Below, piece by piece: positions 12,532 through 15,485 of a stretch of DNA of 39,277 nt. The stretch spans positions 1 through 39,277 of the forward strand of contig JAUROD010000055.1 in the NCBI GenBank assembly GCA_030835845.1, given 5' to 3'. Both the position numbers and the translations under genes were made by a program. A model generated the notes under the pieces. The model made no database searches. It was not told where the DNA came from and saw only the letters and a program-made list of their open reading frames with translations. The stretch is from Flavobacteriaceae bacterium. Its GTDB lineage: Bacteria; Bacteroidota; Bacteroidia; Flavobacteriales; Flavobacteriaceae. Every line of letters begins with the position of its first letter. Positions within the stretch are counted from its first letter, which is position 1.

Positions 12532-13548
12532 CTATTCGTCAAAGCCCTGAATACCTTGAACAGTTGTATATTTTAATGTAAATCTTTTTTCAGGGTGAAT
12601 AATTTTATATGCAGTCTGCACAGCAAGAGTCGCCTCGTGAAATCCACACAATATGAGTTTAAGTTTTCCAGGATAGGTATTCACATCACCCACAGCAAAA
12701 ATCCCAGGAACAGTTGTTTGATAATCCAATGTATGGTCAACTTTAATGGCATTTTTTTCAATGTCTAATCCCCAATCTGCAATAGGTCCTAACTTTGGAG
12801 AAAGCCCAAAAAGAGGGAGCCAACAATCAGTATCAAACCAACTATTTTCCTTGCCTTTTTGTTTTATTTCAATAGATTCTAAGTCATTTTGACCTCTTAA
12901 ACCAACAACTTCAGCAAGGGTAAAAAGTTCAATTTTATTTTCTTTTTCGAGTTGTTTTACTTTTTCTAGAGAATCTTTGTGTGCACGAAAAGATTCACTT
13001 CTGTGAATTAAACCGACTTTGCTATTGTTGTGTTCAGCAAAATAAATTGCCCAATCAAGTGCAGAGTCTCCTCCACCTGAAATAAATATTTTTTTCCCAA
13101 GAAAAGTCTCAGGTTCTCTAACCATATATTCGACTCCTCTTTTTTCGAAGGATGCAAGAGAGTCAATCAGTGGTTTGCGAGGTTCAAAACTCCCTAAACC
13201 ACCTGCAATAATAACGACAGGAGCTTGGTGTTTTGTTCCTTCACTAGTGGTCACAATAAAAGAACCATCCTCTTGTTTTTTTATTGTTTCAGCACGTTCA
13301 CCTAATGTAAATGTTGGCTTAAAAGGAGCTGCTTGCTCCATTAAATTATGTACTAATTCTCCTGCCAAAATAGATGGAAAACCAGGAATGTCGTAAATGG
13401 GTTTTTTGGGATAAATTTCAGAAAGTTGACCACCCACTTGCGGAATGGCATCAATCAAATGACACTTTAACTTCATCAGTCCTGCTTCAAAAACAGTAAA
13501 TAACCCTACGGGACCGGCACCAATAATTAATATATCTGTTTTAATCAT
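12532..13548 (-). CDS. Ferredoxin/flavodoxin-NADP(+) reductase, thioredoxin-reductase-like type
   Basis: This 338-residue flavoprotein has the FAD dinucleotide motif GAGPVG at residues 10-15 and an NADPH motif GGGDSALDW near 160. A final FAD motif, GIFAVGDVNTYPGK, is followed by the helix GFHEATLAVQTAY. It has the two-domain layout of thioredoxin reductase but lacks the CxxC redox pair, which places it with YumC-type ferredoxin-NADP reductases of Firmicutes, green sulfur bacteria and Bacteroidota. It would move electrons between NADPH and ferredoxin or flavodoxin in the cytoplasm. I chose ATG 13548 (MIKTDILIIG); an upstream TTG at 13566 is in frame but less likely. No ferredoxin gene is nearby. 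A DoxX-like gene follows 21 bp downstream. Confidence 0.93.
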   Translation of the reverse strand: MIKTDILIIGAGPVGLFTVFEAGLMKLKCHLIDAIPQVGGQLSEIYPKKPIYDIPGFPSILAGELVHNLMEQAAPFKPTFTLGERAETIKKQEDGSFIVTTSEGTKHQAPVVIIAGGLGSFEPRKPLIDSLASFEKRGVEYMVREPETFLGKKIFISGGGDSALDWAIYFAEHNNSKVGLIHRSESFRAHKDSLEKVKQLEKENKIELFTLAEVVGLRGQNDLESIEIKQKGKENSWFDTDCWLPLFGLSPKLGPIADWGLDIEKNAIKVDHTLDYQTTVPGIFAVGDVNTYPGKLKLILCGFHEATLAVQTAYKIIHPEKRFTLKYTTVQGIQGFDE

Positions 13549-13668: not shown

Positions 13669-14934
13669 TTAAAATGCCTGTTTCAAATCTCTTTTCAGAT
13701 CCTCAATATCCTCTAATCCAATTGAAAGTCGAATAAGATCTTGACTCACTCCGGTTTCCAATTGTTCTGAAACACTTAGTTGTTGATGCGTTGTACTCGC
13801 AGGATGAATTATCAATGATTTTGAATCCCCAATATTTGCCAATAATGAAAATAAAGAAGTCTGATTCACAGCTTTTTTAGCAGTGTCAAACCCACCTTTA
13901 AGACCAAAAGTAACAATACCACTTTGTCCTTCAGGTAAGTATTTTTTTGCAAGATGATTGTATTTACTTGACTCAAGTCCGGGATAATTAACCCATGCTA
14001 CTTCATTTTGATTGCTCAACCACTGAGCAATTTCAAGTGCATTTTGTGAGTGTTGTTTTAGTCTAACTTTAAGCGTTTCAAGCCCTTGAATGATTTGAAA
14101 GCTATTAAATGGACTAATAGCAGCACCAAAGTCACGTAGTCCTTCAATCCTTACCTTGGCGATGAATGCAGCAGGACCTAATGCCTCATGATAGACCAAA
14201 CCGTGATAGCCTGGAGAGGGTTCAGTAAATTCAGGAAACAATCCATTGCCATAGTCAAACGTCCCTGCATCGATTATAACACCTCCCATAGCTGTTCCGT
14301 TCCCATTAATGAACTTTGTCAAGGAATGAATAACAATGTTTGCTCCATGTTTTATCGGATTCAATAGCGCGGGCGTTGCTACTGTATTATCAACAATAAA
14401 GGGAACTTTAGCCTTTTTAGCTTCATTTGAAATTGCGTCCAAATCAAGTACATCAAGTTTCGGATTTCCAAGTGATTCAGCAAAAAATGCTCTCGTGTTT
14501 TCTTGTACTGCTTCACCAAAATTTTCTGGTTTATCAGGATCGACAAAAGTCGTCGTAATCCCCAACCTTGGTAAGGTTACATTTAGTAAATTATAAGTAC
14601 CACCGTATAAGCTATTGGATGCTACAATATGATCACCTGCTTTTAAAAGCACCATTAAAGTTGTTGCAATTGCTGCAGTTCCTGAAGCAGTAGTTACCGC
14701 TGCAATACCTGACTCAAGTGATGCTAGACGCTGTTCTAACACATCGTTTGTGGGGTTGTTTAAACGCGTGTAAATATAACCGGGCTCAGCAAGTGAAAAT
14801 AAATTTGCTGCATGATCTACATCGTCAAATACATAAGCAGTTGATTGGTAAATTGGAACGGCACGTGTACCTTGTGTTGATTTTGTGTCGTGTCCCGAGT
14901 GAAGGGCTTTTGTTGCAAAATGATTGTCATCCAT
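13669..14934 (-). CDS. metY: O-acetylhomoserine (thiol)-lyase / homocysteine synthase
   Basis: This 421-residue PLP enzyme of the Cys/Met metabolism family makes homocysteine from O-acetylhomoserine and sulfide for methionine synthesis. It has the typical start FATKALHSGHD and the AVPIYQSTAYVFDD motif, YTRLNNPTND (substrate/PLP phosphate), SLYGGTYNLL, Asp182 in FIVDNT (ring nitrogen), and the Schiff-base Lys207 in VIHSLTKFINGNGTAMGG. The length and the NGNGTAMGG segment favour O-acetylhomoserine sulfhydrylase over cystathionine gamma-synthase. Transcription starts from a clear promoter within a large palindrome shared with a divergent Rrf2 regulator, so control by sulfur or Fe-S status is likely (inference). 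A terminator follows. Confidence 0.95.
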   Translation of the reverse strand: MDDNHFATKALHSGHDTKSTQGTRAVPIYQSTAYVFDDVDHAANLFSLAEPGYIYTRLNNPTNDVLEQRLASLESGIAAVTTASGTAAIATTLMVLLKAGDHIVASNSLYGGTYNLLNVTLPRLGITTTFVDPDKPENFGEAVQENTRAFFAESLGNPKLDVLDLDAISNEAKKAKVPFIVDNTVATPALLNPIKHGANIVIHSLTKFINGNGTAMGGVIIDAGTFDYGNGLFPEFTEPSPGYHGLVYHEALGPAAFIAKVRIEGLRDFGAAISPFNSFQIIQGLETLKVRLKQHSQNALEIAQWLSNQNEVAWVNYPGLESSKYNHLAKKYLPEGQSGIVTFGLKGGFDTAKKAVNQTSLFSLLANIGDSKSLIIHPASTTHQQLSVSEQLETGVSQDLIRLSIGLEDIEDLKRDLKQAF

Positions 14935-14966: not shown

Positions 14967-14997
14967 CAAAATTACATGTTTATTTTTAAAAAACAAA
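14967..14997 (-). promoter_or_regulatory. metY promoter (TTTG, 19 nt, TAATTTTG)
   Basis: On the minus strand TTTG (14997-14994) and TAATTTTG (14974-14967) are separated by exactly 19 nt, which matches the Bacteroidota -33/-7 consensus in full. It is 32 nt upstream of the metY start. The -33 element lies inside one arm of the palindrome at 14990-15032, so a protein bound there would block polymerase. Confidence 0.8.
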
Positions 14998-15032
14998 TAA
15001 AACCTATAATGTTTATAGGTTTTATTTGTTTT
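14990..15032. promoter_or_regulatory. Perfect 20-bp-arm palindrome, probable operator between metY and the Rrf2 gene
   Basis: Bases 14990-15009 are the exact inverse complement of 15013-15032, around a 3-nt centre (TGT). The core CCTATAA-TGT-TTATAGG is flanked by AAAACAAATAAAA and its complement. The site sits between two divergent genes and overlaps the metY -33 element. Rrf2 regulators bind as dimers to inverted repeats of about this kind, so autoregulation plus metY control is the natural reading. The symmetry is seen; the binding protein is inferred. Confidence 0.75.
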
Positions 15033-15074
15033 AAAATTTTATTACCTTTAAGCCAGTAAAATCAATTACAAATA

Positions 15075-15485
15075 ATGATTTCAAAAAAATGTAAATATGC
15101 AATCAAAGCATTGCTTTATCTAGCGGACAACCAAGATGATGGACGGTCTATTTTTTCAACAGAGATTGCTCAAATAGAAAATATTCCCCAAAAATTTTTA
15201 GAAACTATTTTACGTGAGCTTCGTAATTTTCGGCTTTTAGAAAGCCGTCGAGGTAAAACAGGAGGATATCGACTAAACAAGAAACCCTCAGAAATTAAAC
15301 TCACTGACTTAATGCGGATGATGGATGGACCTATTGCATTATTACCATGTGTTTCACTCAATTATTATTATCCTTGTGCAGAATGTGATGAATCTCGCTG
15401 TACAATCAAACCAGTGTTCGAAAAAGTACGCGACAGTACGCTTTCTATCCTTGAAAATACAACCATTGAAATGATGCGCAATTAA
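15075..15485 (+). CDS. Rrf2-family transcriptional regulator
   Basis: This 136-residue protein has the Rrf2 winged helix: ISKKCKYAIKALLYLA, ENIPQKFLETILRELRNFRLLESRRGKTGGYRL (recognition helix and wing, about 36-66). The effector region has four cysteines: Cys92, Cys101, Cys104 and Cys109. The layout C-x8-C-x2-C-x4-C differs from the IscR C-x5-C-x5-C spacing but could still hold an Fe-S cluster or sense thiols. The family includes IscR, NsrR and CymR (which controls cysteine metabolism through CysK). Divergent placement from metY over a shared palindrome suggests a role in sulfur amino acid control. A -7-like TACCTTTA lies at 15043-15050, but its -33 spacing is poor. Confidence 0.92.
   Translation: MISKKCKYAIKALLYLADNQDDGRSIFSTEIAQIENIPQKFLETILRELRNFRLLESRRGKTGGYRLNKKPSEIKLTDLMRMMDGPIALLPCVSLNYYYPCAECDESRCTIKPVFEKVRDSTLSILENTTIEMMRN

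Follow-up and report, generated by a model that had tools for sequence, protein, structure and literature searches.

A perfect 43-bp palindrome located between metY and the divergent gene of an Rrf2-family regulator in a Flavobacteriaceae genome is probably the operator of this adjacent regulator, which would act as a CymR-like repressor, originally a switch of sulfate assimilation and acting today on metY in a lineage where no cysH was detected. The palindrome was analysed within a window of 39,277 nucleotides, that is the whole stretch of contig presented above, and compared with related loci and genomes. Binding by the Rrf2 protein, its sensing of sulfur or Fe-S status and the resulting repression are proposed here from genomic context, the protein being linked to the site by gene neighbourhood. 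To our knowledge, the control of sulfate assimilation has been little described in Bacteroidota. A literature search combining Rrf2 in Bacteroidetes or Flavobacterium with cysteine or sulfate, which covered titles and abstract openings and few subscription journals, retrieved no description of such a regulator among the papers listed. The combination of a regulator, an operator and fixed operator positions makes the proposal directly testable in flavobacteria.

The palindrome (14990-15032, without strand) is formed by two 20-bp arms (14990-15009 and 15013-15032) around a TGT centre. An inverted-repeat search of the window bore out the perfect symmetry announced in the preliminary description, with complementarity at 20/20 arm positions and a 3-nt spacer. 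No other perfect short-loop inverted repeat in the window is as long, the runner-up having an arm of 12, and the longest arms in 60 dinucleotide shuffles reached 9-12 against the 20 observed. Among 29 related loci, an alignable site was found upstream of rrf2 in 24, giving 25 rows with the window; L008, which has no upstream DNA, was excluded together with the more distant L025 and L028-L030, where no comparable core was found upstream of rrf2. These near relatives bear the names Candidatus Arcticimaribacter or Flavobacteriaceae or Bacteroidetes bacterium, and a small number of the loci come from more distant organisms. Sites were positioned by their best match to the consensus, and the identical 31-mer of L012 and L027 reduces the site alignment to 24 rows. 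A 23-25-bp core, ATTCCTATAAA[G/C]TTTATAGGAAT, is kept across the 25 aligned sites (window included), with either divergent unit, metY (n=11) or DUF2061-cysH-cysD (n=14). The motif CCTAT-N7-ATAGG is exact in 20 of them and carries one mismatch in the other 5; CTAT and ATA are present in 25/25 rows, CCTAT in 21, ATAGG in 24 and both complete half-sites in 20. In the window, the core CCTATAA-TGT-TTATAGG (15003-15019) is the sole occurrence of this motif at 0 mismatches. With one mismatch allowed, the window holds 3 matches against 0.86 expected and, genome-wide, this short pattern is unspecific, a reversed control being about equally frequent in many genomes (by eye).

The symmetry conserved in the relatives is much shorter than the palindrome itself. 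Pairing between positions 13-21 bp from the centre averages 4.29/9 in the 24 relatives, against 4.47 predicted from independent columns and 9 in the window, so that these relatives show no symmetry above chance level beyond 12 bp from the centre. This outer symmetry being private to the window, the two dimers or wider footprint previously proposed from the long arms are not needed. The operator predicted from the alignment is about 25 bp long (14999-15023), and the perfect 20-bp symmetry would be an extension of this shorter conserved site specific to the window's genome; it may have arisen by a small number of substitutions in a flank that was similar beforehand, or by a template-switch correction.

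On one side of the palindrome, metY (13669-14934, minus strand) encodes an O-acetylhomoserine/O-acetylserine sulfhydrylase (TIGR01326, 630 bits, cut-off 495) and is followed downstream by a thioredoxin-reductase-like FAD/NAD(P) oxidoreductase gene (12532-13548, minus strand; family-model matches). In 14 near-relative rows the divergent genes are DUF2061, cysH and cysD, with cysN beyond them where the DNA reaches, the family names of these genes being taken from one representative, L016. The orders metY-DUF2061-cysH-cysD in L006 and metY, DUF2061, CysG N-domain and an oxidoreductase of the window's type in L004 suggest that the metY and oxidoreductase genes of the window are what remains of a sulfate-assimilation cluster. 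The window's genome (1.56 Mb, 61 contigs, 84% complete) has a single match to the Rrf2 protein at E<=0.001, and cysH was not detected in this incomplete assembly; the circuit thus appears to be left over from the control of sulfate assimilation and to act at present on metY. In this clade the regulator may therefore outlive its pathway, since rrf2, operator and metY are still found together where cysH is undetected. In the Saprospiraceae locus L025 (3001-4798), the homologue (65%) is followed by a cysteine/cystathionine beta-synthase-type gene, with no palindrome upstream.

On the other side of the palindrome, the gene at 15075-15485 (plus strand) encodes a protein of 136 aa that belongs to the Rrf2 superfamily (PF02082, 115.9 bits, cut-off 30; TIGR00738, 104.5 bits, cut-off 73.3). 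Its AlphaFold2 model (pLDDT 86) displays the winged helix and long C-terminal helix of the Rrf2 fold. Besides Cys 6, it has the four effector-region cysteines reported earlier from the sequence (Cys 92, 101, 104 and 109); model confidence is lowest at residues 91-100 (mean pLDDT 62), in the middle of this region. The pattern C-x8-C-x2-C-x4/5-C is found in 97/99 homologues, the exceptions being L030 (35% identity, three cysteines in the region) and L013. In the latter (L013:3001-3420), an in-frame TAA separates effector cysteines 1 and 2, due to a sequencing error or to a pseudogene, and this sequence was dropped from one alignment for that stop. The near-invariance of the four cysteines makes a ligand site plausible, putatively of the Fe-S or metal type.

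Operator position was evaluated relative to predicted transcription starts. The -7 box TAnnTTTG is described as spanning -12 to -5 (PMC9723704), and each start was placed by this rule 5 nt after the best TAnnTTTG near the site, all starts being predicted in this way. The metY promoter described earlier could be recognised by eye, with TTTG (-33 element, 14997-14994, minus strand), 19 nt and TAATTTTG (-7 box, 14974-14967), giving a start at about 14962 and placing the operator centre at -49. The reported overlap of palindrome and promoter holds for the outer arm, which covers the -33 element, but not for the conserved core (15003-15019), which lies upstream of it. In near relatives, ACAAATA (divergent -33) and CAAAnnTA (-7) are kept at a fixed distance, and in 23/25 rows of the window clade the divergent start places the operator centre at -48 to -50; L020 and L022 are without a full -7 box. 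Other relatives have it at -37 (L092, L094) or -27 (L095). As the site abuts the -33 region, occlusion is the simplest reading, while the constant distance of about -49 also fits activation. On the rrf2 side, a weak -7-like box, TACCTTTA (5/6; 15043-15050, plus strand), would give a start at about 15055 with the operator centre at -44, and the distance to the rrf2 start is scattered in the clade (-35 to -52 for rows having a full box). The mirror arm was discarded as a properly spaced rrf2 -33 element, its TTTG being 14 nt rather than 19 before TACCTTTA (by eye). In many of the loci L097-L119, the rrf2 start codon is preceded, at a distance of a few nt, by a TAnnTTAG-type motif, a placement that suggests a leaderless or near-leaderless rrf2 transcript.

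The association between site and regulator was also surveyed in 19 genomes of the genus, all to be read with the reservation that incomplete genomes make single absences weak. The gene rrf2 was found in 13 genomes, and a profile built on 24 near-relative sites, applied with strict filters, found the site in 13/13 of these, with one strong place per genus genome; the profile comes from mostly the same genomes, so that only the absences are independent. In G018 rrf2 is cut by the contig end, in G009 site and rrf2 are on different contigs, both at ends, and G014 has a site at a contig end and no rrf2. Neither rrf2 nor site was found in G001 (54-aa partial match only), G006, G008, G012 and G016. 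The metY gene is present in 18/19 genomes, and 13 of these 18 loci were examined: the site was present in 4/4 cases where metY is beside rrf2 (or beside the contig end in G014) and in 0/9 where it is located elsewhere (<=2 mismatches, within 260 nt). In G008, metY follows a gene reading as S-adenosylmethionine synthase (by eye). Sulfate assimilation appears patchy in the genus, with cysH detectable in only 8/19 genomes. Each of these 8 has rrf2 or its site (Fisher p 0.045, uncorrected for kinship or completeness), and 6 of the 11 genomes without cysH keep rrf2, including that of the window (G000).

At the level of the family, an Rrf2 homologue (E<=1e-12) was found in 155/199 genomes, and 69 loci were sampled from this longer list (29 supplied by the homologue search and 40 taken as every second row of the listed remainder); two of them, L091 and L093, duplicate the near relatives L020 and L023. 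Matches to CCTAT-N7-ATAGG with <=1 mismatch were accepted in the 260 nt following or the 160 nt preceding rrf2. The site flanks rrf2 in 48/69 loci (42 after, 6 before), or 46/67 without the two repeats, while each of 29 permuted words did so in at most 6 loci, and no site was found inside the 69 rrf2 frames. The preliminary description had expected conservation upstream of orthologous genes, and these 48/69 loci, with the 25 near-relative sites, do not contradict this expectation. A site follows rrf2 in 42/52 loci with a downstream DUF2061, cysH or cysD match (cysH being called in distant loci at 23-28% identity to one reference) and in 0/17 loci without. Its centre relative to the predicted start of this unit is +9 in 30 of the 42 cases and +10 to +13 in 11 others, with a single site placed elsewhere, so that 41/42 sites occupy a repressor position. 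Among the 17 loci without a downstream cys match, 6 have the site before rrf2, with divergent DUF2061-cysH-cysD in L091, L092 and L094 and divergent metY in L093; L095 and L096 are too short to show their divergent genes. The remaining 11 have none, indicating that rrf2 is not generally autoregulated through the CCTAT-N7-ATAGG site. These 11 are part of the 21/69 loci without a site at <=1 mismatch; the other 10 have downstream cys genes, and about 7 of them hold a 2-mismatch version (by eye). Among phylum loci, a site with <=1 mismatch was found beside the homologue in 11/29; five of the 29 loci, including three of the 11 positive ones, repeat genomes already counted, and this tally, made without permuted comparison, does no more than suggest a spread of the operator beyond the family.

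We propose that an Rrf2 dimer would occupy about 25 bp built around CCTAT-N7-ATAGG and would repress when reduced sulfur is plentiful. At most family loci the site lies across the predicted DUF2061-cysH-cysD start, where bound protein would block transcription; in the window clade its place is between the rrf2 promoter and the divergent promoter of metY or of the cys operon, abutting the -33 regions. There, the core being upstream of the metY -33 element, the case for occlusion is weaker than at +9. When the signal, probably perceived through the four-cysteine site with a putative Fe-S cluster or metal, is lost, the operator would be freed, and metY would then be expressed and sulfide fixed into homocysteine.

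Additional targets were searched with a family profile of 34 sites, which matched 24/25 genomes at E<=0.05, a count that is not independent as these genomes supplied many of the profile sites. On the window's genome at E<=1, it did not list the window site, its best match (0.0998) being inside a gene (L190); this failure indicates that the core of the clade is a variant of its own. Other matches were found between two genes in L188 and inside reading frames in L189, L190, L056 and G013 (C2:105895). The profile also reported sites before a 109-aa ferredoxin-like gene in G189, G188 and G024, adjoined in G188 and G024 by a NifU-domain-like gene (L187 by model match, L185 by eye), and before a peroxiredoxin gene in G231. 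The ferredoxin-like name comes from a weak match to an ISC ferredoxin model (30.2 bits, cut-off 132) and inspection by eye, Pfam giving no match. Sites before this gene in eight genera are centred at -51/-52 of the predicted start, 4 with <=1 mismatch and 4 with 2; among the loci concerned (L184, L185, L187, L191-L193, L195, L196 and L199) no -33 element is evident by eye. Their number is equalled by other words, at 2/30 (1 mismatch) and 7/30 (2 mismatches), and the ferredoxin-like region of the window's own genome (L270) has no site with <=2 mismatches. Membership of ferredoxin in the regulon is not proven, the constant distance being its only support; if these sites are real, they represent a second fixed position, perhaps of activation. 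Peroxiredoxin genes may form a redox branch of the regulon. An operator-like site lies upstream of such a gene in L186, and in L029 and L247 a similar peroxiredoxin-type gene (by eye) is directly downstream of the Rrf2 homologue.

These distances raise the alternative of a position-dependent dual regulator, repressing cys genes from +9 and activating, from about -50, metY in the window clade and ferredoxin in other genera. The centre at -48 to -50 in 23/25 near relatives with two gene contexts fits this reading, as do the -51/-52 sites of eight genera, without TTG at -33 by eye. We nevertheless regard it as unlikely, since a single inherited promoter may underlie both the metY and the cys promoters of the clade, which keep TTTG at -33, the ferredoxin sites do not exceed permuted controls in number and may be those of an Rrf2 paralogue, and the -37 and -27 positions (L092, L094, L095) fit repression. 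A broader version, in which the four-cysteine Rrf2 would be a sulfur switch of Flavobacteriaceae, shutting sulfate reduction from +9 and activating ferredoxin or the window clade's metY from about -50, so that the use of electrons and sulfide would be tied to Fe-S status, is unlikely to the same degree.

The site could also belong to a regulator other than the adjacent Rrf2: adjacency is no proof of binding, the site tracks the cys operon rather than rrf2 itself across the family, and many genomes have further Rrf2 matches. This appears improbable, given that, within the genus, neither the 5 genomes lacking rrf2 nor the metY genes located elsewhere have the site, that it remains beside rrf2 despite the change of orientation, and that its CC-N13-GG spacing is that of one CymR site. 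A transcribed hairpin, either a terminator or a riboswitch-like RNA element, deserves hardly any credence, even if a terminator scan reports 14990-15032 as a stem-loop. The palindrome is upstream of both predicted starts, at about 14962 (minus strand) and 15055 (plus strand), between divergent genes, and would be transcribed from neither promoter, a position that argues against such an element; moreover, only the core symmetry is kept in relatives and Rfam at the gathering threshold found only a tRNA in the window.

Structure comparison does not single out one relative, as the top solved structures tie (a Listeria innocua regulator, Z 15.3; B. subtilis CymR, 15.1; IscR, 14.6) and the matches in rows 2-15 are named CymR, IscR, NsrR, RsrR or Rrf2 family (Z 15.1-12.7). 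CymR is the cysteine repressor of Bacillus and Staphylococcus (PMC3828012, PMC2869319). The window protein shares its fold (2y75, Z 15.1, 2.6 A over 124 residues, 29% identity) and, judging from the neighbourhood of the site, may have a role in cysteine and sulfur assimilation comparable with that described for CymR (PMC3828012): the site precedes DUF2061, cysH and cysD or metY, a putative CymR-like regulon. Its CC-N13-GG spacing is also that of one B. subtilis cysK site (PMC11487621), thin evidence as the literature consulted provided this single CymR site and no printed consensus. Conversely, the protein scores 71.1 bits against the CymR equivalog NF047409 (cut-off 195), and its family conserves four cysteines where the aligned B. 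subtilis CymR has none. Tyr-137 of CymR has been modelled against CysK (PMC11487621); no conserved C-terminal residue corresponds to it among 95 full-length homologues, which argues weakly against a CymR-type corepression through a CysK complex. The earlier idea of a sulfur circuit analogous to but distinct from CymR accordingly stands for the association of the site with rrf2 and sulfur genes and for the distinction, and is to be amended for metY: across the family the site is mainly at the promoter of the rrf2-adjacent sulfate-assimilation operon, and metY is a local client, with no site at the metY genes examined away from rrf2 in the genus (0/9).

With IscR the protein shares the fold (4hf2, Z 14.6) and, as with NsrR, RirA, RsrR and RisR, a cysteine cluster in the effector region, of which a three-cysteine class has been described (PMC9973013). 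It differs in that four cysteines spaced x8, x2 and x4/5 are found here, the score against the IscR equivalog TIGR02010 is 55.9 bits (cut-off 207.6) and the main predicted target is sulfate assimilation rather than isc or suf. SifR, a quinone sensor of Streptococcus, has a comparable near-palindromic 19-bp operator, TGTAA-N9-TTACA (PMC9218516), but differs by its half-site, its single-thiol sensing and its catechol and iron-uptake targets. As the curated models designate neither CymR nor IscR, we classify the protein as an Rrf2 regulator of putative CymR-like action with an IscR-like cysteine region.
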